Assembly: GCA_938016265.1 (NCBI GenBank)
Contig: CALLWB010000034.1
Location: 1 to 64,000 of the forward strand
From: an uncultured Saprospiraceae bacterium
Lineage (GTDB): Bacteria; Bacteroidota; Bacteroidia; Chitinophagales; Saprospiraceae
Reading direction: 5' to 3'
DNA length: 64,000 bases
Positions 1-44,500 of this stretch are shown one piece after another. Under the pieces are notes generated by a model. The model saw only the letters and a list, made by a program, of their open reading frames with translations, did not search any database and had not been told where the DNA came from. The first letter of the stretch is position 1, and every line of letters starts with the position of its first letter. The position numbers and the translations under genes were made by a program.

Positions 1-1773
1 TTAGATTGGAATTCTGCTTATGCCTCGACGTATTGTCCTGGGTGTATCCAGCAATTTTATGTTGGACTAGGTACCGAAACGACCAATTGTCTTTATTCTG
101 GGAGTACTTCATCTCCTAGATCAGGTGCAGAATCGTTTACGTTTACTGCGCCAACTACGCCTGGGGTTTATTACTTCCATGCAAGCAGCAGTCTTCAGTT
201 TTCTTGTATTCTTCCTGCTAGTTATTCCACTTCTAGTGTGGGAGCGATTGGGGCGATTGTGGTGGGTGCAACTCCAACCACCATTTTGACCGTGACCGAT
301 GCTTCTGGGAATTCTTCTACTTGTTCTGCGAATGTTACTGTAGTTGACAATATTGCTCCAGTGGCTATGTGTCAGGATGTAACGGTGATGTTGGATTCGA
401 GTGGTGTCGCAACAATTACGGGAATGGATATCGATGATGGTAGTACGGATAATTGTAGTATTGACAATATGACTGTTTCTCCTTCTTCATTTGACTGTAG
501 TGCTATCGGAGTTAATGCGGTGGTATTTACGGTAACGGATATCTTTGGAAATACTTCTACTTGTACTGCTAATGTTACTGTAGAGGAGGATATTGCACCG
601 ATTGCGTTGTGCCAGGATCTAACTGTTATGCTGGACTCTAGTGGGGTGGCAACAATTACGGGGATGGATATCGACAATGGAAGTTCGGACAATTGTGCTA
701 TTGATAGTATGAGTGTTTCTCCTTCTTCGTTTGATTGCAATTCTATCGGGAGTAATCCGGTAGTATTCACCGTAAGGGATATCTTTGGAAATACTTCTTC
801 TTGTACTGCTAATGTAACTGTAGAGGATAATATTGCGCCGATTGCTATGTGCCAGGATCTAACATTTACCCTCGATAATAGTGGAACGGTTGTTATTTCG
901 GAAACCGATATTGATAATGGTAGTTCAGATAATTGTGGTATTACTAGCATGACGCTGGACGAAACTACATTTGATTGTAATGACCTGGGGATCAATCCAG
1001 TGGTTCTGACGTTATCTGATGCATCCGGAAATACTTCTACTTGCACTTCGATGGTAACTATTCTGGCAGGAAATGCTTGTAATAATCTTGCGGTTGTTGT
1101 ACGGTTAAAAGCTTGGTTGGAAGGACCTTACAGTTCGACTACCGGGTTGATGAGCGACAATCTCCGATCTAGCAATTTGATCCCTCTTACTGAGCCATAT
1201 ACTGGTTTGGGATATACTCCTGCTTTACAAGGAGGTGGAGAAACCATTGACCCTTCGGTGTTAGCTACAACGGGGCCGGATGCTATTGTTGATTGGATAC
1301 TTGTTGAGTTACGAAATAGCACTGACTTTACGATTGTAATGGCTTCAAAAGCTGTGTTGATTCAAGCAGATGGTGATGTTGTTGACTTGGATGGTTATTC
1401 TCCTGTAACGATAGAAGGATTAGGACCTGATACTTATTATATTGCTTTAATGCACCGTAATCACTTAGGAGTAATGACTCCAGGAGCCATGCCTCTTTCG
1501 TTGACTTCTGCTGTCTATGATTTCAAAACTGGCCAAGCCTATGGTAACCTTGGCGGTGGTGTTCAAAAATCAATAGGTCCTGGTGTTTTTGGATTGTATG
1601 AAGGCGATCTTGATTTTTCTGGAATAATAAACGCATCGGATAGAAGTACTGCCTGGAATACCAGAAACACTTCAGGTTACATGCTGGAAGATTCTAATTT
1701 TGATGGGACTTGCAATGCTTCTGAAAGAAGCCAAACTTGGAACAATAGAAATAAAGACTCGAAAATTCCCTAG
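1..1773 (+). CDS. HYR-repeat surface protein, 5'-truncated by window edge
   Basis: The reading frame is open from base 1, so the gene starts upstream; 590 codons are visible. The first ~80 residues form a Cys-containing domain (CPGC near residue 13). After the tail of one immunoglobulin-like HYR unit come three HYR repeats of exactly 240 bases (about 346-585, 586-825, 826-1065), each with the CQD, DNC and STC cysteine positions typical of this family. From ~1111 comes a domain starting AWLEGPY and containing VDW, DGDVVD and HRNHLGVMT. The protein ends in two dockerin-like loops (GDLDFSGIINASDRS and DSNFDGTCNASERS), each followed by WNxRN, and a final IP. No T9SS type A tail is present. The same C-terminal module ends the genes at 19022 and 46139. 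An extracellular adhesion or matrix protein is inferred; ligand unknown. A terminator follows the stop codon. Confidence 0.85.
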   Translation, partial: LDWNSAYASTYCPGCIQQFYVGLGTETTNCLYSGSTSSPRSGAESFTFTAPTTPGVYYFHASSSLQFSCILPASYSTSSVGAIGAIVVGATPTTILTVTDASGNSSTCSANVTVVDNIAPVAMCQDVTVMLDSSGVATITGMDIDDGSTDNCSIDNMTVSPSSFDCSAIGVNAVVFTVTDIFGNTSTCTANVTVEEDIAPIALCQDLTVMLDSSGVATITGMDIDNGSSDNCAIDSMSVSPSSFDCNSIGSNPVVFTVRDIFGNTSSCTANVTVEDNIAPIAMCQDLTFTLDNSGTVVISETDIDNGSSDNCGITSMTLDETTFDCNDLGINPVVLTLSDASGNTSTCTSMVTILAGNACNNLAVVVRLKAWLEGPYSSTTGLMSDNLRSSNLIPLTEPYTGLGYTPALQGGGETIDPSVLATTGPDAIVDWILVELRNSTDFTIVMASKAVLIQADGDVVDLDGYSPVTIEGLGPDTYYIALMHRNHLGVMTPGAMPLSLTSAVYDFKTGQAYGNLGGGVQKSIGPGVFGLYEGDLDFSGIINASDRSTAWNTRNTSGYMLEDSNFDGTCNASERSQTWNNRNKDSKIP

Positions 1774-4656: not shown

Positions 4657-5907
4657 CTAAATCAAATCTTCCAGAAAAAAAACAAACTTCAATTTTTCGT
4701 TTTTCCGGTTTACTTTGATTCGGATTTTTTTGCCGGCTTTCTTTTGCAAGAGTCCCATGACCAATTCGAGTTTCATGCCACCACGGAGAATACTATTTAG
4801 TTTTAGGACTTGGTCGCCACGTTGTATTCCAACCCTGTATGCTGGAGAGCCTTTTAGTACTTCATTGACCATGATCTTATTGAGTGTTTCTCCCTGGGCG
4901 ATTAGGCTCATCCCACTCCGGTCGTAGTCAAAATCGCGATTGTAGTTGCGAATGGGTTTTAGGTATAGTTGATGTCCTGGAAAATCGAAGATGGACTTAA
5001 AGCGTTTCAGTAGTCGGCTACCAATTATTCCTTCGCGGTTAAATTGGGGAATGGTGTCATTGATTTCGGGCATGTTTTGAAAGTGCGTCACCACATTTCT
5101 GAATTCAAATCCAGGGATATTTAATAGTTTAACTCTTCCGAGATAGCCATCTAAAAATCCGCCTAACCCCGATCCGATTCTTCCCTGGATTACATTTTCT
5201 GGTAGTTGAATACTGTCGTTGGTGTTTGGGTGTAATAGCAAGGACAAATCTGCGCCAGTATCAATTAGCAATTGAGCTTCAAGTCTGGTTCCTTCATCGA
5301 GCGTTATTGGAACATTCAAATAGGGTTTGTTGGTAGAAAAATTCATGGGCAGATGCTGCCAACCTTTCCTCGGGGCTTCGAAAAAACGAGCATCAAAAAT
5401 GGTAAGTATTTTCTTTTCATAGTCGATTTCCAGCACATGGTATTGAAAGATATCGATTCCTAGAATGCCATGAATTTCTGTGCCAATTACATTTTCAATT
5501 TGAAGATAATCTTCTTCTAACACTAAAATAGACATGACGCGATCTGCCTGAAAGTTGATATTTATTTCCAGGTTTGGAATAAGATATGCATTGATCTTAT
5601 GACTACGATCGGCCCCATAAACAACAAACTTTCGATTGTAGGATATTGCCTCTGGATGGACTAACTCTTTCTTGGTCAAGATCGTGTACCTCGATCCAGT
5701 ATCCACTATAAACTTCAAAGGAAGATAATTACCAAGGCTGACAGTGACTACCATAAAATTATTGACTAATTCAAAGGGAATTTCTACTTTTTTTGCGCCT
5801 TTTAACAAGGAAGCCTCTATCAACCTTTGCCCATACAGACTAGTAGAAACCAATGTACTAAGTAGCACACAAATCAATAACAAAAAAGCATTTAGCTGAC
5901 GTACCAA
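4657..5907 (-). CDS. Secreted retropepsin-like aspartyl protease with PDZ domain
   Basis: 416 residues: a signal peptide ending near YGQ (residues 1-27), two retropepsin-type half-domains with active-site DTG at 69-71 and 216-218, and a C-terminal PDZ domain (~325-410; GSPAYRVGIQRGDQVLKLN). The aspartyl-protease/PDZ combination is common in Bacteroidota and is thought to act on envelope or extracellular proteins. Both catalytic aspartates are present, so the enzyme is probably active as a pseudo-dimer. Translation appears to start at TTG 5907: a stop codon precedes it directly and no ATG lies near. The gene converges with the VWA-type gene and has no operon partner. Confidence 0.85.
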   Translation of the reverse strand: MVRQLNAFLLLICVLLSTLVSTSLYGQRLIEASLLKGAKKVEIPFELVNNFMVVTVSLGNYLPLKFIVDTGSRYTILTKKELVHPEAISYNRKFVVYGADRSHKINAYLIPNLEININFQADRVMSILVLEEDYLQIENVIGTEIHGILGIDIFQYHVLEIDYEKKILTIFDARFFEAPRKGWQHLPMNFSTNKPYLNVPITLDEGTRLEAQLLIDTGADLSLLLHPNTNDSIQLPENVIQGRIGSGLGGFLDGYLGRVKLLNIPGFEFRNVVTHFQNMPEINDTIPQFNREGIIGSRLLKRFKSIFDFPGHQLYLKPIRNYNRDFDYDRSGMSLIAQGETLNKIMVNEVLKGSPAYRVGIQRGDQVLKLNSILRGGMKLELVMGLLQKKAGKKIRIKVNRKNEKLKFVFFLEDLI

Positions 5908-6460
5908 TTAAATCAATATTTAGGTAAGAACATTTATAAGCATTAATCTTAAACAACCCCGATTTTCCAACAAGAACAACTATTGGTGAGCATTAACAAT
6001 ATTACAATGTATTCAAACAAATTCCAAGGAAAAGCAATGTTAATGGTTTCTTCGACCCTGCGCCATTCACCCTTCCACCATTAATCAATAATCAAGATAA
6101 TATTTTCAGTTAACCAGGTATTTATTTTGAAAAACTCAAAGGGAAATCCAGTTCTAAACAATGAGAAATCACTCAACAAATTACTGTAATTCAGCAAATT
6201 ACCAACAAAACCTATTAAAAAAAAGATACAATTTCAAAGGTTCTACCCCATTTATGTAATTGTTCTTTCGCGCGAATCGGGTAATATTTGTTACACAATT
6301 GACAAACGTCAGTTATTAAGATATCATTTAGTTCTTGCTTGTAACACACGCTCCCTGTAACTCCAAAATCAGGCGATCCATTTTTTGTCACCAAGTAAAA
6401 ACGCTATAAAGAATATTTTTTAACAACATAGTTTTCGTAGGAAGGAAACGTTGTTTTTGA

Positions 6461-6503
6461 AAAGAGGTTGCTTGGAAAAGTCTTAGCAACCTCTTTCTTT
6501 TTT
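6461..6503 (+). terminator. Orphan intrinsic terminator upstream of rarA
   Basis: Perfect 12-base stem AAAGAGGTTGCT (6461-6472) with AGCAACCTCTTT (6485-6496), 12-base loop, then CTTTTTTTT. No plus-strand gene precedes it, because the upstream gene is on the minus strand. A small RNA or a premature terminator in a long rarA leader is implied. Its left arm has no A run, so minus-strand function is unlikely. Confidence 0.75.
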
Positions 6504-6561
6504 TTAAAAAAATCAGTAATTGTAGATCGAAAACCAAGGCGGGCATGATTAAAAAATGTTG

Positions 6562-6569
6562 TACTTTTG
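6562..6569 (+). promoter_or_regulatory. Probable rarA promoter -7 element
   Basis: TACTTTTG matches the Bacteroidota housekeeping -7 consensus TAnnTTTG exactly and ends 18 bases before the chosen ATG. No clear -33 TTTG was found at the usual spacing. Confidence 0.55.
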
Positions 6570-6587
6570 TGATTGAAATCGGACAAT

Positions 6588-7865
6588 ATGATTAATATTC
6601 CTTTAGCAGAACGGTTGCGGCCAAAAACGTTGGACGACTATGTTGGCCAACAGCATTTGGTCGGCGAAAATGCGATCTTGCGGAAAGTGATCGAAACGGG
6701 AAAGCTGCCTTCCTTTATTCTCTGGGGACCACCAGGCGTCGGCAAAACGACCCTTGCAAAAATCATAGCCAACAAACTAGAACGCCCTTTCCAAACACTC
6801 AGTGCCATCAATGCGGGCGTGAAAGACATTCGCGAGGCGATTGCCGAAGCCAAAAAGAAACAATTCTTCAGCAGACCAAACCCGATTTTATTCATTGATG
6901 AGATTCATCGATTTAGCAAATCGCAGCAAGATTCATTGCTGGGAGCAGTGGAGCAAGGAGTCATTACACTTATTGGAGCGACAACAGAAAACCCATCTTT
7001 TGAGGTTATCTCTGCCTTATTATCCAGGTGTCAGGTGTATGTTTTGAACGCTTTGAACAAGGAGGAATTGGAGGAACTGCTGCAACTCGCGCTAGCTAAA
7101 GATGAACAGCTACGAGACCTTGATATTGAAATCAAAGAGAAGGAAGCATTGTTCAGACACTCTGGGGGCGATGCCAGAAAATTGCTCAACATCCTGGAGA
7201 TTGTGGTCAATGCGGAGACGGGTGATAAAATAATCATCGACGATAAAACTGTCACTGAGCGCCTACAAAAAAACATTGCCCTGTATGATAAAAACGGGGA
7301 ATTGCATTACGATATTATTTCGGCGTTTATCAAATCAATTCGTGGGAGCGATCCGAATGCAGCGGTCTATTGGCTGGCGCGGATGTTGGAGGGTGGCGAG
7401 GACATCAAATTTATAGCGCGCCGCCTAGTGATTTCTGCTGCGGAAGATATCGGCCTTGCCAATCCGAATGCGTTGCTACTTGCCAACAACTGCTTTCAGT
7501 CCATCAATGTTATTGGAATGCCGGAAGCGCGGATTGTTTTGTCTCAGTGTACTATTTATCTTGCTACTTCTCCTAAGAGCAATTCTGCCTATGAGGCGAT
7601 CAATGATGCACAGCGGTTAGTCAGGGAGACGGGCAATTTGTCTGTTCCCTTGCATATCAGAAATGCGCCTACTAAGTTGATGAAAAGTCTGGGTTACGGC
7701 AAGGATTACAAGTATGCTCATGGCTTTGAAGGCAATTTTAAAAAGCAGGACTATTTGCCAGACGAATTGAAGGGGAAGGAGATTTATGCGCCGCAGAAAA
7801 ATGGCTCAGAGGAGGTGATTCGCAAGCGGTTGCAGGCTTGGTGGAAGGATCATTATAAGTATTAA
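6588..7865 (+). CDS. rarA: Replication-associated recombination protein A (RarA/MgsA), AAA+ ATPase
   Basis: 425 residues from ATG 6588. RarA is a clamp-loader-like AAA+ ATPase that acts at stalled replication forks. Seen here: the family-typical opening LAERLRPKTLDDYVGQ, Walker A GPPGVGKT at 47-54, Walker B with DEIH at 104-107, sensor region GATTENPSFE, and the C-terminal tetramerisation domain with DPNAAVYWLARMLEGGED and PHG-type ending. Length fits the family. A TTG at 6573 would add five residues, but it falls too close to the -7 box at 6562-6569 to be transcribed. The gene is single and converges with a lipoprotein gene 24 bases away. Confidence 0.95.
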   Translation: MINIPLAERLRPKTLDDYVGQQHLVGENAILRKVIETGKLPSFILWGPPGVGKTTLAKIIANKLERPFQTLSAINAGVKDIREAIAEAKKKQFFSRPNPILFIDEIHRFSKSQQDSLLGAVEQGVITLIGATTENPSFEVISALLSRCQVYVLNALNKEELEELLQLALAKDEQLRDLDIEIKEKEALFRHSGGDARKLLNILEIVVNAETGDKIIIDDKTVTERLQKNIALYDKNGELHYDIISAFIKSIRGSDPNAAVYWLARMLEGGEDIKFIARRLVISAAEDIGLANPNALLLANNCFQSINVIGMPEARIVLSQCTIYLATSPKSNSAYEAINDAQRLVRETGNLSVPLHIRNAPTKLMKSLGYGKDYKYAHGFEGNFKKQDYLPDELKGKEIYAPQKNGSEEVIRKRLQAWWKDHYKY

Positions 7866-7889
7866 CACTCCCCTATTGTGTCTGTATTT

Positions 7890-8780
7890 TTACTTGCAAT
7901 TTGCAAACAGATCTAGTGCAATATCTTGTTCTTCCGCTTTCAACAATCCATATAGGTTTTTACGTTTTACACCGAAGAAGGTAATGTAATTCATTTTGCC
8001 ATTGGCTTTAAAGGAATATACTGGTTTTGCCGCTGCTTCAGAATATTCTCCTTGGCTGACGAACACTAATTTGTCTTTCCAGTAAAGGATTTGTGTTCCT
8101 TGTCCTTCTAGGAGTTTGAAGTCTTGATGGCTTTGTGTGGTCATCTTTTCTAGTTGGATTTTTGTGGAGTTGGTTTGGCATTTTCCATGGAGGTCTGCTT
8201 TATTGTACAAAACTGTTTGGTTGGTGGTTTGTTCCTTTTTCCATTGATATCCGTAGCATTTTTCGAGGCCTTGTTTATCGCCTCTTAGGGATTTGGCTAG
8301 CGGCTTTTGGAAATCGCGGGTTGGCCAGTTTTCTTTGATATTTGTTTTTTCCTTCTGGAAAGCTACTTTTTGGAAATCAACTGGGTGAACTTCTCCTTCT
8401 AGTAATACAAGCAGATTGCCTATGGTTTGGAGGTCTTTTTCTGCGAGGTATTCGACGACCATTCTTGATATGGGGTTGCCGTTTTCGTCTTTTTCAATTT
8501 TTGTTTCGGTCTTTTTTAGGAAAGCTTTGGAGTATCCTGTCTCGCCAACTACGGTGACTAAGAAGTAGTCCATTTCTCCCATATCTAAACAAGGGAAGCC
8601 GACTTTCAGTTGTTGGCCGTTTATCTGGGTGGTTTCACTTTCTATGTGGGCGGGTAGTAGGTTGGCATTGGCTGAGGGTAGGTTTGATTGGGATGATGCG
8701 CTATGGGAATTGTTGTCTGTACATGCTGTTAGGAGGAAGATTACAAGTAAAAAAATGATCAGTTGGTATTGGTTTGACAT
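7890..8780 (-). CDS. Lipoprotein of unknown function
   Basis: 296 residues. A short hydrophobic signal ending in the lipobox LLTAC (Cys ~20) predicts a lipid-anchored envelope protein. A low-complexity Ser/Asn linker follows, then a mature region without a family I recognise. The mature part is rich in charged residues and beta-prone segments, including a stretch that may mention a stored calcium or ligand (DMGEMDYF) but shows no clear catalytic motif. It is monocistronic and converges with rarA. Function cannot be assigned. Confidence 0.7.
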   Translation of the reverse strand: MSNQYQLIIFLLVIFLLTACTDNNSHSASSQSNLPSANANLLPAHIESETTQINGQQLKVGFPCLDMGEMDYFLVTVVGETGYSKAFLKKTETKIEKDENGNPISRMVVEYLAEKDLQTIGNLLVLLEGEVHPVDFQKVAFQKEKTNIKENWPTRDFQKPLAKSLRGDKQGLEKCYGYQWKKEQTTNQTVLYNKADLHGKCQTNSTKIQLEKMTTQSHQDFKLLEGQGTQILYWKDKLVFVSQGEYSEAAAKPVYSFKANGKMNYITFFGVKRKNLYGLLKAEEQDIALDLFANCK

Positions 8781-13080: not shown

Positions 13081-15555
13081 TTAATTATTCATAACAAACC
13101 GAGTGACATCAGTAGTCTTACCATCCGTCGCTTTCAAAAAATATACCCCGTCTGCCAGGTGTGAAAAATCGGTAACGACTCGTTGTCGACCACCATTAAT
13201 CAGTCCAAAAGGGATTGATTTTATCGTTCTGCCTTGTACATCGTAGACGGTCATTTCTATGGTAGAAGGCTGGGTAAGATCCAACGTAACTTCCAATTTC
13301 TTGGCTTTCACAGCGGTGCTAACGATGGTTATATCTTTTGTATCCGTTTCAAAATAAGCAATGATTTCGTCATCCGCTTCAAAATTGTAGGCAATTGAAG
13401 TACTAAATTCCTTATCCAAAATCGTGTTGAACGACTGCCAATGGCTAAACGTATAGCCAGGCTCCGCCTCAATGGTCAAGGTCACCGGAACTCCGTCAAA
13501 GTAAATACCTGCCCATGGGAGTTGATCTGGAATGATGGTATTAATTTTAATTTTTCCTGCGCCTTCGGGAAAGGTATTGAGAGTGAGCGCTACTTCTTTT
13601 TGCAACTCAAAATAATCAATCAAATGCTGCCGGACGTGGGTCGGTCGGTTGTCTACGTATTCATACAAAATGGGTAGTCTACTTTCTTTCCAACAGGTAT
13701 AACTACAAATTGGCCATCGATCAAAGTGCCGCTGCATATCAAAATCCAGTATCTCTGCTGTCCGATCGATCTCCTTGCTAAACTGCTCGGGCTTGAAACT
13801 GGTATTCAGGATATCAGCATGTCTGTTGAGGAAATAATTTCGAAAGGTCGTATTATTCAAAAAAGACTTAAAGATGTTAATATGTCGGTTGGTTCCCGGA
13901 TCGGCCATTTTTTCTTCAAATAAATTGTAATCGTAGGTAGTCCAACCGTGGCGTCCCATTGCAATATCCATATCAAAAACCAAGTAGCGCCAGCGGGCAT
14001 TTTCTTTCCTCTCGCGCCAATATTTGATGTTATTGCCCAACCAATCATTGTTATTCAGGCAAAGTTCAACGATAAAGGTTTCTGCTAGGTTTTCGACATC
14101 AAAAAAGGTAGTTGCTTTTTCGTAATTCGTTTCAATGCGTAGATCATTGGTAAAAACGAATTGGTACATACTATCAAAAATATGGTAGTTGCCGACGTTG
14201 ACAAGCGTGTCTTCCTCAAGGAGATCCAGGTTCTCGATGTCGACGCCATAGTTATTTGCCAAATAATGTTCGTCCGATTTTTCGCGCATATTGATGACTC
14301 CGTAGTACTTTCCATTTAGATAAATCGCTACAGGTTGGTAGGCCATCACATCCAAATTCAGCCCTTCTTTCATAAAATATCTGGAGAGAAAGGCATCTCT
14401 AAAGTGTGCATTATTGTAGTCTCCACTAGCGTTGCGAAGCACCAACCGCTTGTAAGTGGTCCGTGTTCTATCCTTAAAAAATGGGTAGGACACCGTGGCA
14501 TCTCCATACTTCTTTTTAGTAAGCAGACGAAATGGTTTTTGCGGATTGGTACGCGCACCTCGCCCTCCATGCACCCTAGTGTCAAATTGATGCGAAAATG
14601 CTAATTTTTGGTGGTCTTCAAAATACTCCATGTATACAGGGACTTCTTTATCTGACCAATAGTTTGCCCCCCAATAAGGCCAGGTCGGCTGCGCATTCCC
14701 ACCTTGAATCAATATGCCTTCCTCGTAGTCCCAAAAATTGTAGGGGCTGGTAGAAAGTGCAAGCACGGGCAATTGGTGATCGACTTCTACAAAAAAGGTA
14801 AAGGTGCTTACGGAAGACGGCAGATGGCTCTCCACAACTGCAATCGCTTTGATAACGACCGATTTGTCGATTCGGATCGGTCCGGTATATCGTTGATTTG
14901 CGGTAGTAGGAATGTTTCCATCCGTGGTATAGTAAATTTGTGCTCCTGGAACGTTTGATTGCAATTCGATGGTGGAGGAGGTTGTAAAAAACCGAGCACT
15001 TCTTGGGTATTCTGGCGGGGCTATTCTTTCTAATAAAGGTGGGCCAGTATTTTCTGTCAAGGGAGTTGGGACGACTTGTACCTGCCAATTTTGGCTGGCA
15101 TCCGGCATTCTCGCCCACGAACGATCTTGTCCATGCGCAGGGTAATTGACCTGATCTACGAGCAAACTATCGGGTGTGCTCAATGAAATGGTTTCTCCAG
15201 CACTAGATAGTTTGAAGTTGGTACTTGGAAATTGTAGCCAGGTATCTTCTTTGTTCGCAAAAATGATCGCATGGGTGTTTGGAGCAATTGATATCTCTGG
15301 AATTCGCCACTTGTGTAAATTGGTGTCGTCGTCGCTCAAAAACCAATTTTTTAAGGAGACTTCATTTGGCCCAGCATTGAACAATTCGACCCAGTCCGCG
15401 CTTCTTCCAAAGTCGTCATTTATCGTTTGGCTATTGCTTGCGCACACCTCATTGATTAGGATTTGCGCATTAATATCCAAGGGAAATACAACGCATACTA
15501 TCAGAAAATGCGACAATAGAATACCACCCTTTATATTTAATATAAAGTCATCCAT
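13081..15555 (-). CDS. T9SS-secreted CotH-family protein with lamin-tail domain
   Basis: 824 residues. Signal peptide ending near NAQ (~31); lamin-tail domain (~32-150; ILINEVCASNS, DWVELFN); chitobiase/FN3-like beta domain (~185-255; IYYTTDGNIPT); CotH kinase-like domain (~265-620) with VHGGRGARTNPQKPFRL, RLVLRNASGD and RYLVFDMDIAMG; an InlB-B-repeat-like segment (~650-735; FSHWQS, IIAYFE); and a T9SS type A C-terminal signal (~745-824; MTVYDVQGR, ADGVYFLK). CotH-type domains phosphorylate proteins on spore coats; in Bacteroidota they are secreted and their targets are unknown. Likely cell-surface, co-transcribed with the lipoprotein gene downstream. Confidence 0.9.
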   Translation of the reverse strand: MDDFILNIKGGILLSHFLIVCVVFPLDINAQILINEVCASNSQTINDDFGRSADWVELFNAGPNEVSLKNWFLSDDDTNLHKWRIPEISIAPNTHAIIFANKEDTWLQFPSTNFKLSSAGETISLSTPDSLLVDQVNYPAHGQDRSWARMPDASQNWQVQVVPTPLTENTGPPLLERIAPPEYPRSARFFTTSSTIELQSNVPGAQIYYTTDGNIPTTANQRYTGPIRIDKSVVIKAIAVVESHLPSSVSTFTFFVEVDHQLPVLALSTSPYNFWDYEEGILIQGGNAQPTWPYWGANYWSDKEVPVYMEYFEDHQKLAFSHQFDTRVHGGRGARTNPQKPFRLLTKKKYGDATVSYPFFKDRTRTTYKRLVLRNASGDYNNAHFRDAFLSRYFMKEGLNLDVMAYQPVAIYLNGKYYGVINMREKSDEHYLANNYGVDIENLDLLEEDTLVNVGNYHIFDSMYQFVFTNDLRIETNYEKATTFFDVENLAETFIVELCLNNNDWLGNNIKYWRERKENARWRYLVFDMDIAMGRHGWTTYDYNLFEEKMADPGTNRHINIFKSFLNNTTFRNYFLNRHADILNTSFKPEQFSKEIDRTAEILDFDMQRHFDRWPICSYTCWKESRLPILYEYVDNRPTHVRQHLIDYFELQKEVALTLNTFPEGAGKIKINTIIPDQLPWAGIYFDGVPVTLTIEAEPGYTFSHWQSFNTILDKEFSTSIAYNFEADDEIIAYFETDTKDITIVSTAVKAKKLEVTLDLTQPSTIEMTVYDVQGRTIKSIPFGLINGGRQRVVTDFSHLADGVYFLKATDGKTTDVTRFVMNN

Positions 15556-19021: not shown

Positions 19022-22000
19022 ATGAAGATTCAGATAAGCTCCATATTGGCACTCTTTTTTGTCTTCCAGATGAATGCTCAACTAACACAAACAGGTGAAA
19101 GTCTGCTATTCGGCCCTTTGGTTGGAGCAGTGAGTTCTGGAGAGGCCCCTGTTTTCTTTTTGCTGGACAAAGGGAATGGGAATTCCCAATTCACCGTTCG
19201 ACTGGAAAGTCCCACTTCAAGTAGTATCTACCAACCCAATTCGATCAAGTCTTTCTGTCAAGGAGACACCTGTAGTTATGTAGCCACCTTTACCGGATTG
19301 ACAAACAGCTCAGCACTAGAAGCTGTTGTTTATATGGATGGAGCGATGGTTGGCAAAAGTTGGCGTCCTTTTGAGGTACCAGATGCGACCCCTTCCGATT
19401 TTAGTTTTTTACTTGGCAGCTGCGCATCTATGGCAAACAATGTCAATAGCCCCAACTGGGCCAGAGAAGACATTTATACTCAAATGGCATTAGAAGATGC
19501 AAAGTTTATGCTTTGGGCCGGAGACAATGTATACCTGCCTTCCAATGATCTGGACACGTCGCTTGTGTTTGACACTTATGTCAAATATCGCACTAAAAGC
19601 CCGGGGCGCAATCAATTTCTAAACAGTTTTTTCCATTTTGGAATGTGGGATGACCACGACTATTCTTATGACAATGGATCTGCGGACTATCCTGACAAAA
19701 CATTCTCCTCAAAGATATTCAAACACTGGTGGCCAAATGCTGGATATGCACATTCCAATGAAGCAGAAGGCATTCAAAACACCTACCAATACAAAGACAT
19801 TGAGTTCTTCAACACAGACCCACGGTATTACAAATCAAGGAATTCCCAACTGGGATCTTCGCAACTTGACTGGCTAAAAGACAAGCTCCAGCAGTCAACC
19901 GCCACCTTTAAGTTTATCACGCTGGGCGCTCCAGTAATGGAAGAAGAAAAATCGTCGGCAACAACAGAAACCACTTTATTTAGAACAGGAGAACGAGCAT
20001 TATTATTTGATTTTATTTATGATAATAATATCGAAGGAGTCGTCTTTTTATCGGGCGATTATCACCGTTCCCATTTTGCAAAATTTGACCCTGGATGCAA
20101 TTCTACCTATCCGCTTTATGAGTTTATGTGTTCTCCCCTCTCCTCTTCGCCTTCATCGGGATCAAGCAATTACGCTGGCGTTTTTTTTGAAGACAATACC
20201 AACTCCTACGGGAAGATAAGGGTCTCCGGTGCGGTAGGCGCCAGATCTTGCACCATAGAAAGCAAAGACGTTGATGGCAACGTAATTTCCAGCTTTACAA
20301 TCGATGAAAATGAACTAAAATTTTCAGGGCAACCCGACATCATCCCAGACGACCATCTAAGGGCCCATTATCAATGTAATACAGAACCTTATGATATCAG
20401 TGGGAATGCTTTCCATGCCACATTCACAGGCAATTCATTTATTGGAGAGGAAAATCGATTTGACGAATCCGGGTTCGCCAATAGAATCAAAACCTCCAAT
20501 ACGACACAAACAAACACTTTTGTGTTACCTCCTGAAAGTTTAGACACCGCAATAGATTTTACGATTTCTCTTTGGGCTCGGCCGATTTATGCTAACTGTG
20601 GCCTTTTTTCTGCTTCCTCTGCCACTACAGGAAATGAGATCCTTGTATACTACAAATCTACTGGCAAATTTTCGTTTTCCTTTCGAAACATAGAAATAGA
20701 ATCCGACCTTATTTTTCCTACTAGCGAATGGTATCATGTAGTTGCCTCCCACCGTGGCAGTGATGGCCTGGGGCGATTGTACATCAACAGTGTTCTGGTA
20801 GCTACAGGGATTCAGGTCGCAGGGCCTACTAGTATCGTTTCTATGCTTTTCGGTAATGATCAGGATGGAGCAGGTGGTGGGAATCTCGATGTCAATCAAC
20901 AATTTTATGGCGCATTCGATGAAATCAGATTGTACGATGGACTCTTATGTGAATATCAGCTAAAAGAACTATTTCAAGAAGGGTTATTTTTAATAGAAGC
21001 CGTTCCGGGTCCCCCTGAATGCACCTCTCCTCAATCAGTTACCTTCGAAGTATCTGGTGCTCCAAATGGAAGTTTCTCCTGGTATAGAGACAGAGAGTCT
21101 GACACCCCAATCCCAGGCCAGTCCAATGCAACATTGAGCCATACAATTACAGAAACGACAACACTTTGGGCTTCTGCGAATAGTGGTTGGATTGATGGCC
21201 CTAAAGTTCCTGTTACGCTGGAGGTGGCTCCTTCGATATATAACGAAACTGCTGGACTCACCTATCCTTCCTCCTTGGTAGCAAGCTATGATTTTTCAAG
21301 CAATAGCGATCAAACCGGAACCTATGCGAATATATGGTCTACGGGGGTTTCCCCTACTACGGGTTTGGACGGTACACCTTCCAGTGCGATAGAATTTGAT
21401 TCCTACCCTGACATTGCAGTTATACCTAGTGCCACACTTCAGCATGCAGCGCGTTTTTCTGTATCTATGTGGATCAAATCAACGGAAACTGAGGTGGCGA
21501 TTTTATCTGCTTCAAATGCGCAGAACAATAATGAATTACTACTGTACATTGCCGAAAACGATGGAATAGGGCTGGTGCTCAATGAGGCTCCAAGAATCTA
21601 CCATACCAATACGCTTACTGATGGCAATTGGCATCATTTGGCAATCACCTGTGATGCGATTAATGCATTGGGCAATGTTTATCTGGACGGACATCTTTTG
21701 AGACCGAAAACAGATGGATCTTTTAAGGCCGGAGCACTGAACATTTCTCAAGGCGCTTTTATCCTAGGAAATGAGCAGGATGTAGCAGGAGGAGGAGGTT
21801 TGTCTCAGGACTATCAGTTTGAAGGAAGCATTGATGAACTAAAGCTCTATAGAAAGGTATTGGATCAGCAGGAAGTACTCGCGCTTGCTACCCAATCAGA
21901 TTATTTTCAATCAAACTTTCAGATTGACGGTCATGCGGAGCGGGTTTGCCCAAATGACTCTTTACGGATTACTATTTCCCCTTTCCAAAAGGAGGTAGAA

Positions 22001-22840
22001 TATTCCATATTAGACAAAAATAATATGATGGTGAATGGGCCTTCGATTGTTGTTGAAGATCGTCTGATTTTGTCTGCGCCAGTCCTTGCTCAAGACACCT
22101 TCACTGTTCGTGCGACGCATCAACTAACTGGATGTTCGAAAGACTTTTCAACCGTTATTGCTGCAGAAACTGGTGGTTGTCTGCAGATGGAAGCCTGGCT
22201 GGAAGGGCCTTATGATCCTACGACCAATAGCATGTCGGACGATTTGAGAGCACGCGGCCTTTTGCCCTTGTCTGACCCTTACACTAACCAAAATTTCATC
22301 ACTCCCGACATATTGGATATAGACGACTCCAAGTCAGTGATTGATTGGGTAAACATAGAGTTTAGAGATCCTCAGAACATGTCGCAACTCGTTTATTTGA
22401 TGCCAGCGTTGATCTTAAAGAATGGAACGATAACAGGAACGGATCGCCAGGGATTGACATTGCCTGATGGATTTATTGGCAATTTTTATGTCTTGCTGAA
22501 TCATCGTAACCATTTGCCTGTCATGACTTCTGCGCCTATTTCTTTTGGAGCCACTAGCGTGAGTCAAATTGATTTTAAAACGAATCCGGGGTTCAGTAAT
22601 TTGGGATCTAACCAAAAAGAACTGGTGCCTGGCATCTATGGACTTTTTTCAGGGGATGGCGATAAATCTGATCTTTGGGGGTACGATATTCATTTGGCGG
22701 AGCGCATTCTTTGGGCGCAGGAAAACGGATATTTTGGTTACTACAAGGCTTCGGATTACAATTTGGACGGCGACGTCAATTCGGTGGATAAGATTATTTA
22801 TAGTGGTAATAATGGGGTGTTTTCTAATATTCCAAAGTAG
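19022..22840 (+). CDS. Surface PhoD-type phosphatase-like protein with two LamG domains and dockerin-like tail
   Basis: 1272 residues. Signal peptide (1-20, ending NAQ). PhoD/metallophosphatase-like domain (~125-430) with LLGSCAS, GDNVY (~166), WDDHDYS (~209) and SGDYHRSHF (~345) supplying the expected metal ligands. Two concanavalin/LamG-like domains (~455-650 and ~755-975), the second with WHHLAITCD. A Ig-like linker between them (~665-735). C-terminal module from ~1058: AWLEGPYD, MSDDLR, VIDWVNIEFRD, NHRNHLPVMT, two dockerin-like loops with SDYNLDGDVNSVD, ending NIPK. No T9SS type A signal. Role inferred: extracellular phosphate release or binding at a polysaccharide surface. It follows a divergent kinase gene. 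Confidence 0.85.
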   Translation: MKIQISSILALFFVFQMNAQLTQTGESLLFGPLVGAVSSGEAPVFFLLDKGNGNSQFTVRLESPTSSSIYQPNSIKSFCQGDTCSYVATFTGLTNSSALEAVVYMDGAMVGKSWRPFEVPDATPSDFSFLLGSCASMANNVNSPNWAREDIYTQMALEDAKFMLWAGDNVYLPSNDLDTSLVFDTYVKYRTKSPGRNQFLNSFFHFGMWDDHDYSYDNGSADYPDKTFSSKIFKHWWPNAGYAHSNEAEGIQNTYQYKDIEFFNTDPRYYKSRNSQLGSSQLDWLKDKLQQSTATFKFITLGAPVMEEEKSSATTETTLFRTGERALLFDFIYDNNIEGVVFLSGDYHRSHFAKFDPGCNSTYPLYEFMCSPLSSSPSSGSSNYAGVFFEDNTNSYGKIRVSGAVGARSCTIESKDVDGNVISSFTIDENELKFSGQPDIIPDDHLRAHYQCNTEPYDISGNAFHATFTGNSFIGEENRFDESGFANRIKTSNTTQTNTFVLPPESLDTAIDFTISLWARPIYANCGLFSASSATTGNEILVYYKSTGKFSFSFRNIEIESDLIFPTSEWYHVVASHRGSDGLGRLYINSVLVATGIQVAGPTSIVSMLFGNDQDGAGGGNLDVNQQFYGAFDEIRLYDGLLCEYQLKELFQEGLFLIEAVPGPPECTSPQSVTFEVSGAPNGSFSWYRDRESDTPIPGQSNATLSHTITETTTLWASANSGWIDGPKVPVTLEVAPSIYNETAGLTYPSSLVASYDFSSNSDQTGTYANIWSTGVSPTTGLDGTPSSAIEFDSYPDIAVIPSATLQHAARFSVSMWIKSTETEVAILSASNAQNNNELLLYIAENDGIGLVLNEAPRIYHTNTLTDGNWHHLAITCDAINALGNVYLDGHLLRPKTDGSFKAGALNISQGAFILGNEQDVAGGGGLSQDYQFEGSIDELKLYRKVLDQQEVLALATQSDYFQSNFQIDGHAERVCPNDSLRITISPFQKEVEYSILDKNNMMVNGPSIVVEDRLILSAPVLAQDTFTVRATHQLTGCSKDFSTVIAAETGGCLQMEAWLEGPYDPTTNSMSDDLRARGLLPLSDPYTNQNFITPDILDIDDSKSVIDWVNIEFRDPQNMSQLVYLMPALILKNGTITGTDRQGLTLPDGFIGNFYVLLNHRNHLPVMTSAPISFGATSVSQIDFKTNPGFSNLGSNQKELVPGIYGLFSGDGDKSDLWGYDIHLAERILWAQENGYFGYYKASDYNLDGDVNSVDKIIYSGNNGVFSNIPK

Positions 22841-31159: not shown

Positions 31160-34081
31160 CTAATATCCAGAAATCATCTTCCCATTTCCAATCAACATCC
31201 CATCATAAACTATTCTATAAAAATAAACTCCAGTAGCCAGTCCACCACCATCAAAACGATAAACAGCGTCGTCAGAAAAAACCGCAGACCGCACCAATCG
31301 ACCAGTACCGTCATACAATTCGAAGGATTTATTCCCGTAAGGAACGCCCTCCAAAATAAAATCTGCATAGGACACAAACGGATTGGGCTGTACACTGATC
31401 CTTAAGTCAGGATAGGCAGGCACAAAAGGATTGGAAGAAAGGACCTGAATAAAATCATCCCCAATTTGATGGTACGTCTCATTAGTGATAACTGGCGCAT
31501 TGAAGTCAAAATAAATCGCAGCACTGTTGTTGATTATCGTCCCTAGTGGCAAGTTGTCTTTTTGGGATATTTTGAATTTGACAAAGCCATGAGATCCCGG
31601 TTCGTTAGTCGTTGAATCTACTAGGAGGATATCATTAAATGTAAATTTTAAAGTACTACCAATGATCGCCAAATCATAAGTATGGCTCGACGTACCTGGA
31701 AGCAAAGTTCCAATGTCCAGAAATTCTGAAATGGTATCTCGGATCACCACCGTAAACGCAGTGTCTGTACCTGTATTTTGAAATCGAATATGATAATCCA
31801 AATCATCGCCCACGTTGATGTAATGAGCGGCATCGACACCAGAAGGTTCTGCTCGTTTATCATTAGGATCAAAAGAACCTATACTTTGCTGGCAGTCTAT
31901 AGAAACATAGTCCATCACATCATCTTCTGGCAAGGTGGTGACGAAGCCAGTACTGTACGTTTGCGTAATTGGATTGATCCCACACCCTTCAATAGCAACC
32001 GTCGGCAGATAAGTCGTCGGAAAGTAGCCCGGTGCCTGCTCTGCATAAAGCCGATAGGTAGATCCATTGGCAGGCAACTTGAAGGAGTACTCTTCGGAAA
32101 CTTGTAGCATAAACTTGCCGGTTTTCATAATGATATTATCTTCAACGACTAAGTAGTCTTGAAGGCTGGACATATTGCTTGTTCCCGTATTTTTTATCGT
32201 AAAGGTTAAGGAATCTAAATCACAAGTTGATCCTACTGTCGTAATCGAGCCATCCCAAAGTGTACCCGAAGGAACACAGATCGTATCAGGATAAATATGC
32301 GCTTCCACACAATGGGTCTGACCTATCATGGTAGAGTCGCAATCTACTGTCACGTTTATCTGGAAATCATGGCATTCCCCTACTTCGAGATCGCCGATCA
32401 AAAACGTGTAGGTTGTTCCTGACTGCGAGTCCCATGGCAAGGTGCTAGAATTGACCGTGAGGTATTCATCAAAATCAATTTCTAGGTACGTGCCTGTAGA
32501 AGCTATCGTCCCTTGATTGCAGTAAGAGACATAATAGGTTGCGTCAAAACATCGTCGTAAAAATGGGGTAGATATATCAGTGGTCAGATAAACACAATTC
32601 TCCAAGGGCTGAACAGGGAAGTCCGTCGTTATGGTATCCTTTGTTGTTACTTGCACTGAGTGAAGCGCTTGACAAGGCTGCCACAAGTTGTTTGCGGGAA
32701 TCAATCGAAGATCATAGGATCCAGAATCAACATTGATAAAATAATTACCTAGGGAATCTGTTAGCCCGTAAAACAATTGAGTGCCCTTCGCTTCTAATAT
32801 CCAATTTTCTAGGCCAAGTTCTATCGGATCAATGGTGCAGGTCATATTCCCATCATTGGCAACATTGCCAGCCAAAAAATTGGTATACAAATTTCCATCT
32901 GGGTTTAATTTTACTAAATATCCTTGATTGTAAGGAGTAGTGAGGTCATTTCTCACCGTACCTGCAAACAGGTAATTGCCATCCAATGTGATTGTCACGC
33001 CATTAAATCGGGCTTGTTCCATGTTCTCTCCAAAATTTCGGCGCCAGATCTCATCCCCAAGGGCATCTACTTTTACTGCTGCTGTCAAGTCAAGAATGCC
33101 TGAAGAAATGGGGAGGATATAACCACCATCAGGAGTGGGCATGATATCCCACGTAAAATAATCTTCCGTTTGACTTAACAGGGTGGACCATTCTTCTAAA
33201 CCGTTGCTGTCTGTTTTTACCAAAAAAAGACTAGAAGGATTACTTCCTGACCTTCCTGCTGCGATAAATCCTCCGTCGAGCGTTGGCGCTCCTGCAAAAA
33301 ACTCATTGATTTCTTGTGGCGCACCGTATAGCTGACTCCAAAGTATGTTACCTGCAGCATCTAGCGTAATAATAACTCCATATTTTTCGGTGTTAGAAAC
33401 CCAATGGATTCCCATTACGGTAAACGTTCCGTTGGCATTTGCGAGTGCTCTATACCCTCTTCCATTATGCGGGTTGGTATAGGTTTGCTCCCATTCCACT
33501 ATTCCAGTATTGTTCAGTTTCAAAATATAAATGTCTTCATAAACAGAAGTTCCATTAGATTCAGTAAAGCCAGTGACTAGGTAACCGCCATCTAATGTTG
33601 GGGTAATGGCATAAGCTAAATCTCTAGCGTTTTTACTGTAGGTATTTTCCCAAATGAGGTTGCCTGCCTGGTCAATTTTTACGACATAGAAATCGTATTG
33701 CCCCCCAAAACCATTTGCAATTTGATATCCAGCAAGGATGTACCCGCCATCCAATGTCGGTTTGATATCAAATGCTACTTCTTCCCCTCCATATCCAAAG
33801 AGTTTTTTCCATTGTACTACTCCATCGACGTCTACTTTGGTGACTTGCATGTCTCTGTAGCCTTGACCGATAGGGTAAGCTGATCCAGCAAAAATGGAAC
33901 CTCCATCTATTGTTGGGGCTACTTTGTATACTGCGGCTGTGCTTCCTTGTGAGTCGTCGGAGTATATCCGTTCCCAGCCTTGCGCCTGCATTGCAGAATT
34001 AGAAACACAAAAGGTAAGTAGGCAGCAGAAGCTGTATAGAAAGACTTGCCTTGAGAGACTATATTTTTTGATGATTTCCAT
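31160..34081 (-). CDS. T9SS-secreted beta-propeller-like surface protein with DUF7619/DUF11-like domain
   Basis: 973 residues. Signal peptide (1-~33), then about seven repeats of the PTLDGGYILAG type (~45-385), each with xxGGYxxxG, which resemble propeller blades. A carboxypeptidase-regulatory-like domain (~400-470), Cys-containing beta domains (~480-690), a DUF7619-like domain (~735-890; SFDPNDKRAEPSG, YHIRFQNTGTDTAF) and a T9SS type A signal (~895-973; ISVQPNPF, ELYDGTGR, GVYFYRIVYDG). Surface-exposed protein of unknown ligand. Divergent from the helical gene at 34241, with a pair of inverted TGTCGACA boxes between them. Confidence 0.85.
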   Translation of the reverse strand: MEIIKKYSLSRQVFLYSFCCLLTFCVSNSAMQAQGWERIYSDDSQGSTAAVYKVAPTIDGGSIFAGSAYPIGQGYRDMQVTKVDVDGVVQWKKLFGYGGEEVAFDIKPTLDGGYILAGYQIANGFGGQYDFYVVKIDQAGNLIWENTYSKNARDLAYAITPTLDGGYLVTGFTESNGTSVYEDIYILKLNNTGIVEWEQTYTNPHNGRGYRALANANGTFTVMGIHWVSNTEKYGVIITLDAAGNILWSQLYGAPQEINEFFAGAPTLDGGFIAAGRSGSNPSSLFLVKTDSNGLEEWSTLLSQTEDYFTWDIMPTPDGGYILPISSGILDLTAAVKVDALGDEIWRRNFGENMEQARFNGVTITLDGNYLFAGTVRNDLTTPYNQGYLVKLNPDGNLYTNFLAGNVANDGNMTCTIDPIELGLENWILEAKGTQLFYGLTDSLGNYFINVDSGSYDLRLIPANNLWQPCQALHSVQVTTKDTITTDFPVQPLENCVYLTTDISTPFLRRCFDATYYVSYCNQGTIASTGTYLEIDFDEYLTVNSSTLPWDSQSGTTYTFLIGDLEVGECHDFQINVTVDCDSTMIGQTHCVEAHIYPDTICVPSGTLWDGSITTVGSTCDLDSLTFTIKNTGTSNMSSLQDYLVVEDNIIMKTGKFMLQVSEEYSFKLPANGSTYRLYAEQAPGYFPTTYLPTVAIEGCGINPITQTYSTGFVTTLPEDDVMDYVSIDCQQSIGSFDPNDKRAEPSGVDAAHYINVGDDLDYHIRFQNTGTDTAFTVVIRDTISEFLDIGTLLPGTSSHTYDLAIIGSTLKFTFNDILLVDSTTNEPGSHGFVKFKISQKDNLPLGTIINNSAAIYFDFNAPVITNETYHQIGDDFIQVLSSNPFVPAYPDLRISVQPNPFVSYADFILEGVPYGNKSFELYDGTGRLVRSAVFSDDAVYRFDGGGLATGVYFYRIVYDGMLIGNGKMISGY

Positions 34082-41275: not shown

Positions 41276-41547
41276 AGAACTGATTCCCATCCACCGCTCC
41301 TAGTAAAAAAAAGCGCTACTCCCCACTGGCGCGGGTTCCGGGAATGGATTCGACGGGCCAACGTTTCAGCGCAAAAGCTTTTGACTGTTTTGTAATTCGC
41401 TTCCTAACCACTTTTTTTATAAATTTATACAGTGCGTATAAAAAAGAAGCAGATACTCAATGGCCAAATTGTTTTACTTTTATAGTTACAAAAGGCTTTT
41501 ATGCTCGAACTTACAAGTACAGACTTTACAAATCAATCTCCCTTCTC

Positions 41548-44500
41548 ATGAAAAATTTCCTACTCTCATTAATCTTTTGCCTGTTTTACTGCAGCGCGAC
41601 TTTTGCACAATGCACCCCAGTAGATTGCTCTGCTTCCCTGCCTGCCTATGGAGGGATATGCGATACACTATTAGCAACAGGAGTCGTAAATACCCCATAC
41701 ACAGATTCTGAATCATTCGTCATCACCGATAACTGTTTCGACGCAGGGCTAATCGATCCTACACAGGCTGGAACTGCCATTAAAATAACCAATGTAGACA
41801 ATTTTACCTTTTCAGGAATGCCTGCCGGTATTACTGGTGCCACTAATATGGCTAGCTACTCTCCTCCTGGTGGAGGATACATCGTCGGCTGCTTTGGAGC
41901 AACAGGCACCCCTACAGAAATCGGTACTTTTGCTGCGACAGCCAACTTCCTCGCGGATATTCGGGCCTACCCGTTTGGTGGAGGCAACTGCTCGGGTTTT
42001 TCTGTTGGCAACAATGACAATGCCTCTTCCTATGCTTTGCAGATGATCATCTTACCAAACCCAAGTTTTACAGGACTCAATCCCTCCTATTGTGAGTTGG
42101 ATGCCACTGCAACACTAGCAATCACTGGAACTCCCGGAGGCACCTTCTCCGGTCCAGGAGTAACTGGCAACACCTTTGATCCGATGGCAGCAGGTCCTGG
42201 TACTCACATGGTAATTTACACAGTTTCCGCCCAGGAAGGGACCGCCATCGCTCCTGCAATAGATAGCTCAGTAGTCACCGTTACCGTAAACGCTTCCATG
42301 ACCTATTATGCAGACACGGATGGAGACACATTTGGTGACCTGAATGCTCCAATGACAGCCTGTGGATCGCCTCCAGCGGGTTTCGTTACCAATAGCACAG
42401 ACTGTGACGATAGCAATTCCTCCATTTTTCCGGGTGCAACTGAAATATGCGATAACTTAGATAATAATTGCAATATAAGTATAGACGAAGGCTTAAACCA
42501 GGTAACCTATTATCTAGACAGTGATGGCGATAACTTCGGAAACGCCGCGACCTCAGTTACCAATTGTTCCGGCCCTCCAGCAGGGTATGTAGCGACCAAT
42601 ACGGATTGCAATGACAATGATGCGACCATCTTTCCAGGGGCGGTTGAAATTTGTGATGGTATTGACAATAACTGCGCAGGTGGTATTGATGAAGGCCTTA
42701 ATTTCGTCACCTATTATTTGGATAGCGACGGCGACACTTATGGAGACTCCACCGTTTCCGTAACAAATTGTTCCGGCGCACCAATTGGCTATGTTGCAAA
42801 CAATACGGATTGTGATGATAACAACGCCTCTATTTTTGCAGGAGCAACGGAAGTTTGCGATGGGATAGACAACAACTGCGATGGAAACATCGATGAAGGC
42901 TTAAATTTTGTCACCTATTATCTGGATAATGACGGAGATAGCTTTGGAAACGCTGCCGCTTCAGTGACCAATTGCTCCGGTCCGCCTGCAGGCTATGTAA
43001 GCAATAATACAGATTGCAACGATGCCAACGCTTCCATTTTTCCGGGTGCAACAGAGATCTGTGATGGAATAGATAATAATTGCAATAACAGTACCGATGA
43101 AGGCTTAACTTTCGTCACCTATTACCAGGATGCTGATGGCGATAATTTTGGCAATCCAAACATCATCGTTACCAACTGCTCAGGTGCGCCAACAGGATAC
43201 GTTACCGACAATACTGATTGCGACGATTCCAATGGTATGATATTCCCTGGAGCTGCAGAAATTTGCGATGGTGTAGACAACAACTGCAACAGCAACTCCG
43301 ATGAAGGCTTGACGTTTATTACCTATTATCAAGACATTGATGGGGACAACTATGGAGACCTTGCCGTATCAGTAACCAATTGTTCCGGTGCTCCAACAGG
43401 GTTTGTCACCGACAGTACCGACTGCAACGACATGGCAGCCACCATAAATCCGGGCGCCCTGGAAATACCAGCAAACGGAGTAGATGAAAACTGCGATGGC
43501 GTAGATGGCATCATCGACAACGACGGCGATCTGTTCGACAGTACTGTCGATTGCAATGACTCAGACAATACTGTTTACCCAGGCGCACCCGAACTATGCG
43601 ACAACCAGGACAACAACTGTGACGGAATGATAGACGAGGGTCTTCCTTTGAATACCTATTATTTGGATACAGACAACGATGGATTTGGTGATCAAGCAAC
43701 TTCTACCACGACCTGCTCACTTACTCCTCCAAACGGTTATGTTGCCGACAATACCGATTGCAACGACAACTTAGCTGCCATAAATCCAGGAGCATCGGAA
43801 GTGTGTGACGGTGTCGACAACAACTGCAATGGAAGTACTGACGAAGGGCTAACATTATACACCTACTATCTTGACGCTGACAACGATGGGGCGGGTGATT
43901 TGTCTTCACCAACTTCAACCTGCGCAGTTACTCCTCCTGCAGGTTATGTAGCAAATTCTTTAGATTGCAATGATAGCAATTCTGCCATCAATCCAAGTGC
44001 TATGGAAACGTGTGATGGCATCGACAATAATTGCGATGGCAACATAGATGAAGGACTAACTCCAAACACCTACTACCTTGATAACGATAATGATGGAAAT
44101 GGAGATATTGCCTTCCCAATCACCACTTGTGCCCTGACTGCACCTACAGGATATGTAGCAAACTCCTCCGATTGCGATGATTCAAATTCAGCGATCAGCC
44201 CAGACGCTACAGAAATCTGTGATGGCATCGACAATAACTGCGACGGAAATATAGATGAAGGCCTCGCTACCACTACCTTCTACTTGGATAATGATAATGA
44301 TGGGAATGGGAACCCTGCAGTTTCCATAGTTAGTTGTAACGCAAATCCACCGACTGGTTATGTTTCTAATTCTAGTGATTGTGATGACAATAATGCTTCA
44401 ATCAGTCCAGATGCGATAGAGATTTGTGATGGCATCGACAATAACTGCGATGGCAATGTAGATGAAGGACTTGTAGTAGCCACCTACTATTTTGATAACG

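Follow-up and report, generated by a model that had tools for sequence, protein, structure and literature searches.

The window, by which we mean the whole stretch of DNA analyzed, is the first 64 kb of a 170.5-kb contig (C34) from a 7.44-Mb genome in 146 contigs. Three proteins encoded on its plus strand, ending at positions 1773, 22840, and 58333, share a C-terminal block of 219 to 227 residues with 35 to 50% identity to the first copy (1105-1770), which bears out an initial annotation of this DNA. In order, the block comprises LEGPY..., DWV..ELR, (H/P)R(N/H)HL..MT, two D-x-(N/D)-x-D/S-G loops, and a terminal xIP, xIPK, or xIPR. Only the second and third proteins are seen whole, the first being cut at base 1 of the contig. 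The features are as follows.

1 to 1773, plus strand: putative X-dockerin protein with HYR repeats, its 5' end beyond the contig, 590 aa visible
1105 to 1602, plus strand: X-module-like Ig-type beta domain of the HYR-repeat protein (AF2 model of 1105-1770)
1603 to 1770, plus strand: dockerin-like tail with two calcium-type loops, ending KIP (model, structure and sequence comparison)
19022 to 22840, plus strand: whole putative X-dockerin protein with a Sec-type signal peptide and PhoD-like and LamG domains
22181 to 22651, plus strand: X-module-like domain of this PhoD-like phosphatase and laminin-G protein
22652 to 22837, plus strand: dockerin-like tail, ending IPK
46139 to 58333, plus strand: whole putative X-dockerin protein of 4064 aa with a Sec-type signal peptide
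57650 to 58159, plus strand: X-module-like domain of the 4064-aa protein, which has CUB, Fn3, and HYR-like repeats
58160 to 58330, plus strand: dockerin-like tail, ending IPR

The T9SS sorting domains of type A, B, and C are represented by the models TIGR04183, TIGR04131, and NF033708 (PMC10202324). At E ≤ 1, none of these models matched the three tagged window proteins, in agreement with the claim that they lack a type A signal. Other cargo in the window had been said to end in such a signal, and this holds for three proteins that exceed the TIGR04183 cut-off of 23 bits, namely those encoded at 13081-15555 (minus strand, 29.9 bits), 41344-45570 (plus strand, 43.4 bits), and 58552-60186 (plus strand, 45.1 bits), while a fourth at 31160-34081 (minus strand) lies slightly below it at 22.3 bits. 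Besides its borderline type A tail, this fourth protein has matches to delta-60 repeat, DUF11, and isopeptide-type domains.

Pfam and NCBIfam hold no family for the module, and only weak Dockerin_1 matches were obtained, in 8 of 31 modules. A single module sequence matched nothing among the PDB sequences; it was a profile of 31 modules that did so, matching 15 chains (best 2b59_B, E 4.6e-4), 13 of which come from cohesin-dockerin or cellulosome entries and two from entries named serine protease. With AF2, window positions 1105-1770 were modeled using an alignment of 31 modules of the same genome, at a pLDDT of 94.1 and a pTM of 0.91. In a Foldseek comparison of the predicted module with the PDB, the ten best entries were X-dockerins or scaffoldin chains containing them (best E 1.8e-4) and the 11th was a dockerin. 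VIA-align placed the predicted module on an X-dockerin with Z 10.1 and rmsd 3.9 over 142 aligned residues, spanning model residues 1-222; dockerin-only chains ranked next, and unrelated entries had Z values of at most 4.4. Sequence identity to dockerins in the structural alignment was 13 to 17%. We interpret the module as an X-dockerin at the extreme C terminus, its predicted fold being an Ig-like X-module followed, as one rigid unit, by a two-loop dockerin. Two calcium-loop/helix repeats with a dockerin sequence are apparent from the PDB profile matches and from the loop counts, with two calcium-type loops in 80 of 113 tails from the genome compared with 2.2 in shuffled tails. The duplicated dockerin-type calcium loop seen in the initial annotation is therefore strongly supported, by the predicted fold and by the sequence match to dockerins in the PDB.

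The block had been described as a feature of three proteins. It is present in all three, but these are a small part of at least 150 copies in the 7.4-Mb genome (three-sequence profile, matches down to E < 1e-30), a lower bound since 150 of 206 candidates were scored. Chance could not account for such a recurrence. From the same genome, 80 further module ORFs were taken with their flanks. Among the 117 ORFs with a visible stop, the module lies within five residues of it in 109, and extra sequence follows the module in eight. A simple rule assigned a signal peptide to 64 of the 87 ORFs with a visible start, and the remaining 23 were judged signal-peptide-like by eye. Among the 25 families listed for the 56 full-length module proteins, none was a T9SS sorting model with matches in two or more members, so at most one protein could carry each such signal, and the proposed exclusivity with type A, B, and C signals stood up in this profile test. 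The same 56 proteins carry mixed cargo domains (beta-helix, M43/M12B/S8 peptidases, LRR, LamG, cadherin-like, and endonuclease); the carbohydrate families among those listed were one GH26 and four CBM_4_9. This mixed cargo differs from that of a cellulosome, in which the dockerin-tagged enzymes are chiefly hydrolases of the plant cell wall.

We then considered the genes beside the module genes in genomes with few module copies, and a downstream same-strand gene recurred in diverse Bacteroidota. It encodes a signal peptide, a beta domain of 140 to 180 residues, and a T9SS-type tail. In 37 pairs, the partner gene lies directly 3' of the module gene on the same strand, with a median gap of 24 bp and 35 of 37 gaps within 100 bp; because the pairs were selected from the lists of module neighbors as cohesin-domain or T9SS-tailed candidates, adjacency in 37 of 37 describes this set and is not an unbiased rate. 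At loci such as L120 and L125, no such gene was present downstream within the stretch examined, and elsewhere the neighbor was cut off. At E ≤ 0.01, TIGR04183 matched 27 of the 37 partners, TIGR04131 two, and the type C model one, so that most of the partner proteins bear, at the C terminus, the type A or B sorting domain that marks T9SS cargo. The partners at L117 (genome G249) and L119 (genome G190) have a type B-like tail, with 39.6 bits to TIGR04131 at L117, and these receptors may be held by a type B shuttle.

The 37 partners vary widely in their N-terminal domains, which form several groups; the structure model covers one of these. This model, made from the domain of a protein in the genome of the window and 33 relatives, had a pLDDT of 95.4 and shows the nine-strand jelly roll of a cohesin. 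With VIA-align, the top 49 PDB entries were all cohesins (Z 13.4 to 8.7, about 10% identity), and the best Foldseek value was 5e-5. The suggestion of a cohesin-like partner is thus strongly supported by the modeled domain of the adjacent gene. For this main subfamily, the predicted fold is what points to a cohesin: its profile (A6) found no cohesin among the PDB sequences, only chance matches, and PF00963 touched 2 of 34 members, both below the cut-off. At L121 (genome G353), the protein encoded upstream of a module gene exceeds the Pfam cut-offs for both Cohesin (33.8 bits against 24.1) and Por_Secre_tail (30.7 bits against 27). An hhalign comparison of A6 with this Pfam-positive cohesin was not significant, leaving the two cohesin subfamilies unlinked by sequence. 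Within the genome of the window, Pfam Cohesin gave sub-threshold matches only and, taken alone, would have pointed to no partner. As for the annotation's view that the block replaces the type A signal, the tagged proteins do lack type A, B, and C domains, but the signal sits on the partner, and the block is therefore best read as a docking tag.

Architectures resembling scaffoldins were also found. In the genome of the window, a 799-aa protein (L245) carries four cohesin domains in tandem together with a type A tail, five proteins join cohesin to X-dockerin (one at L208, two each at L247 and L250), and many have a single cohesin with a type A-like tail; PF18962 is over its cut-off in the scaffoldins. 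Three such proteins are encoded together in a cluster of genome G447: one with an X-dockerin, one with a cohesin and a type A domain, and one in which three cohesins are combined with an X-dockerin. The architectures seen here are those of anchoring, primary, and adaptor scaffoldins (PMC12484212). Since single receptors, a four-cohesin protein, and cohesin–X-dockerin adaptors are all present, layered cellulosome-like assemblies are possible.

Some further proteins of this kind were seen. The scaffoldin-like proteins of L208 (3938-6040, minus strand, on contig C48 of the same genome) and L209 (1448-3631, plus strand) have an internal stretch that resembles a dockerin and, between it and the type A tail, a second domain resembling Pfam Cohesin (18.7 to 19.2 bits, below the cut-off). 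At L188 of genome G124 (5737-8241, plus strand), an 834-aa protein contains three repeats resembling cohesins on visual inspection, with HYDIN-type Ig domains between them, and ends in an X-dockerin; Pfam calls no cohesin in the repeats, and the gene adjoins one for a cohesin-like and type A protein. On contig C23 of genome G190 (280481-282016, minus strand), one 851-aa ORF contains three tandem matches to the cohesin profile and is likely a second scaffoldin, in another family of the class.

The module was detected in 53 of 395 sampled Bacteroidota genomes (42 of 171 genera) and in 28 of 61 genomes of the family to which the window belongs, being greatly expanded in G000, G399, and G397. A contig search with one module protein returned 31 loci, those named being Bacteroidota, and a search of plasmids gave no match. 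The cohesin profile, which was built partly from module neighbors, matched 11 family genomes, all of them module-positive, with 26, 15, and 19 matches in G000, G399, and G397. When the genomes that had contributed to the profile were left out, 7 of 7 cohesin-positive genomes of the family fell among the 24 of 57 that have the module (P 0.0013), and in the phylum 6 of 7 fell among the 49 of 391 (P 2e-5), both values treating as independent genomes that are not. No match to the cohesin profile was obtained in 17 of the 28 module-positive family genomes, a few of which have divergent neighbors of similar architecture. SprA was present in 53 of 53 module genomes, as expected if the module goes together with the T9SS; the association had a P of 2e-7 but weakened to 0.18 after correction by genus, the SprA-negative genomes listed belonging to few families, chiefly one.

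Taken together, these results lead us to propose, with a probability of about 0.8, that the X-dockerin is a tag by which Sec-exported proteins that lack their own T9SS signal dock onto cohesins that are exported and anchored by the T9SS. Given docking-plug tags and matching sockets on proteins with a T9SS tag, these Bacteroidota seem to build cellulosome-like complexes at their surface. Proteins of many kinds, each with a C-terminal X-dockerin, would be exported by Sec, and separate cohesin proteins would be exported and fixed to the surface through a type A, or sometimes type B, sorting domain. The X-dockerin would then dock onto the cohesin of a T9SS-anchored receptor or scaffoldin; this putative binding, probably calcium-dependent, is suggested by the two predicted folds together with the gene pairing. 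For the outer-membrane step, the simplest route would be co-export through the T9SS in complex with the cohesin partner. The T9SS is reported to move folded proteins (PMC9251779), so that co-export of a complex would be possible. Such sorting in trans, in which proteins without a signal would cross the outer membrane by means of their X-dockerin on a T9SS-signaled cohesin and one type A receptor could display many cargoes, even of 4000 residues, is a tentative proposal to which we give distinctly less than even odds. It is about as likely as co-export that the tagged proteins are exported separately and dock once outside.

One competing account keeps the pairing and differs in the exit route: tagged proteins would leave by vesicles, by another secretion system, or through direct T9SS recognition of other features, and would dock outside. 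As a case within the docking proposal, it shares in that probability, and we judge it not far short of an even chance. The components of classical cellulosomes are secreted separately and assembled outside the cell, a precedent that suits this route, as does the fact that the tagged proteins have no T9SS signal; the tight coupling of the genes (median gap 24 bp), on the other hand, fits co-export without proving it. A different explanation, which we consider unlikely, is that the block is a sorting signal of a new class ("type D") with its own shuttle, the loops merely stabilizing it. The extreme C-terminal position in 109 of 117 ORFs, the Sec signal peptides, the mutual exclusion of module and type A, B, or C domains, and SprA in all 53 module genomes would agree with such a signal. 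However, the predicted fold matches X-dockerins clearly better than anything else in the PDB, the neighboring cohesin-fold protein has a T9SS signal of its own, the co-occurrence with SprA is not significant by genus, and sequence beyond the module in 8 of 117 genes is odd for a sorting signal. It is very improbable that the likeness is structural only, with an Ig domain and EF-hand tail forming a general adhesion or calcium-stability module beside an unrelated beta-sandwich surface protein, for although the low identity to dockerins and cohesins and the lack of a significant sequence match for the main cohesin family would fit, dockerins were matched by sequence in the PDB, Pfam Cohesin exceeds its curated cut-off beside a module gene (L121), two specific matching folds lie in neighboring genes, and tandem-cohesin and cohesin–X-dockerin proteins exist.

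The docking arrangement proposed here resembles the type II X-dockerin/cohesin system of cellulosomes (Clostridium thermocellum CipA-SdbA, Acetivibrio ScaA-ScaB), in which an X-module and dockerin are likewise C-terminal, cohesins occur in separate anchoring and tandem scaffoldins, and there are cohesin–X-dockerin adaptors; the predicted folds match. It differs in its Bacteroidota host, in anchoring by T9SS type A or B domains rather than by SLH or sortase, in a cargo that is not mainly cellulases, and in a larger X-module (157 to 170 residues). With the T9SS sorting domains of type A, B, and C, the module shares a C-terminal position on Sec-exported surface proteins of Bacteroidota, whereas no model for these domains matches it, its size and fold differ, and type A is found on the partner. 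Cohesin- and dockerin-like modules outside cellulosomes were reportedly described by Peer et al. in 2009.

The nearest precedent, in the parts of the literature we consulted, is Ca. Stygibacter of the Cloacimonadota, for which cohesin and dockerin proteins with a CTD scaffoldin have been inferred (PMC8542988). In the sections of that paper seen, enzymes with signal peptides have C-terminal dockerins, as here, and a tandem-cohesin scaffoldin has a conserved CTD for attachment to the cell's own surface, with the T9SS cited. That case belongs to another phylum, its dockerins are mentioned in those sections without an X-module, and its proteins were detected by InterPro, whereas Pfam misses both partners in most of the present proteins. 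The system reported here is further set apart by its tagged proteins, of which there are at least 150, by its adaptors, and by its paired operons. A paper on the T9SS in Bacteroidetes states that no cohesins or dockerins were found in its genome or in other Bacteroidetes-affiliated genomes (PMC5831590), and in a cockroach gut study dockerin matches are given for some Bacteroidota genomes and a cohesin for a Christensenellales genome alone (PMC10266427). Our search of the open literature on dockerins with the T9SS, in the text accessible to it, returned no description of such a system in Bacteroidota. Because standard profiles miss both halves in most proteins, such systems would be annotated as hypothetical proteins. 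Bacteroidota are leading polymer degraders. If the docking proposal is correct, at least 150 surface proteins in this genome would be displayed by docking and not by a T9SS signal of their own, counts of T9SS cargo would be too low, and the T9SS might carry non-covalent complexes.

Two further observations concern the genome of the window. Pfam Dockerin_1 reaches its cut-off at C42:103024-103251, which lies within an ORF that also ends in the module, at C81:43744-43893, and at C81:36505-36645, the last only together with neighboring matches in frame. The module tails include two classes, one in which a DRS..WN.RN motif is doubled (62 of 113) and one with an NNG ending (32 of 113), and these might mark two cohesin specificities.
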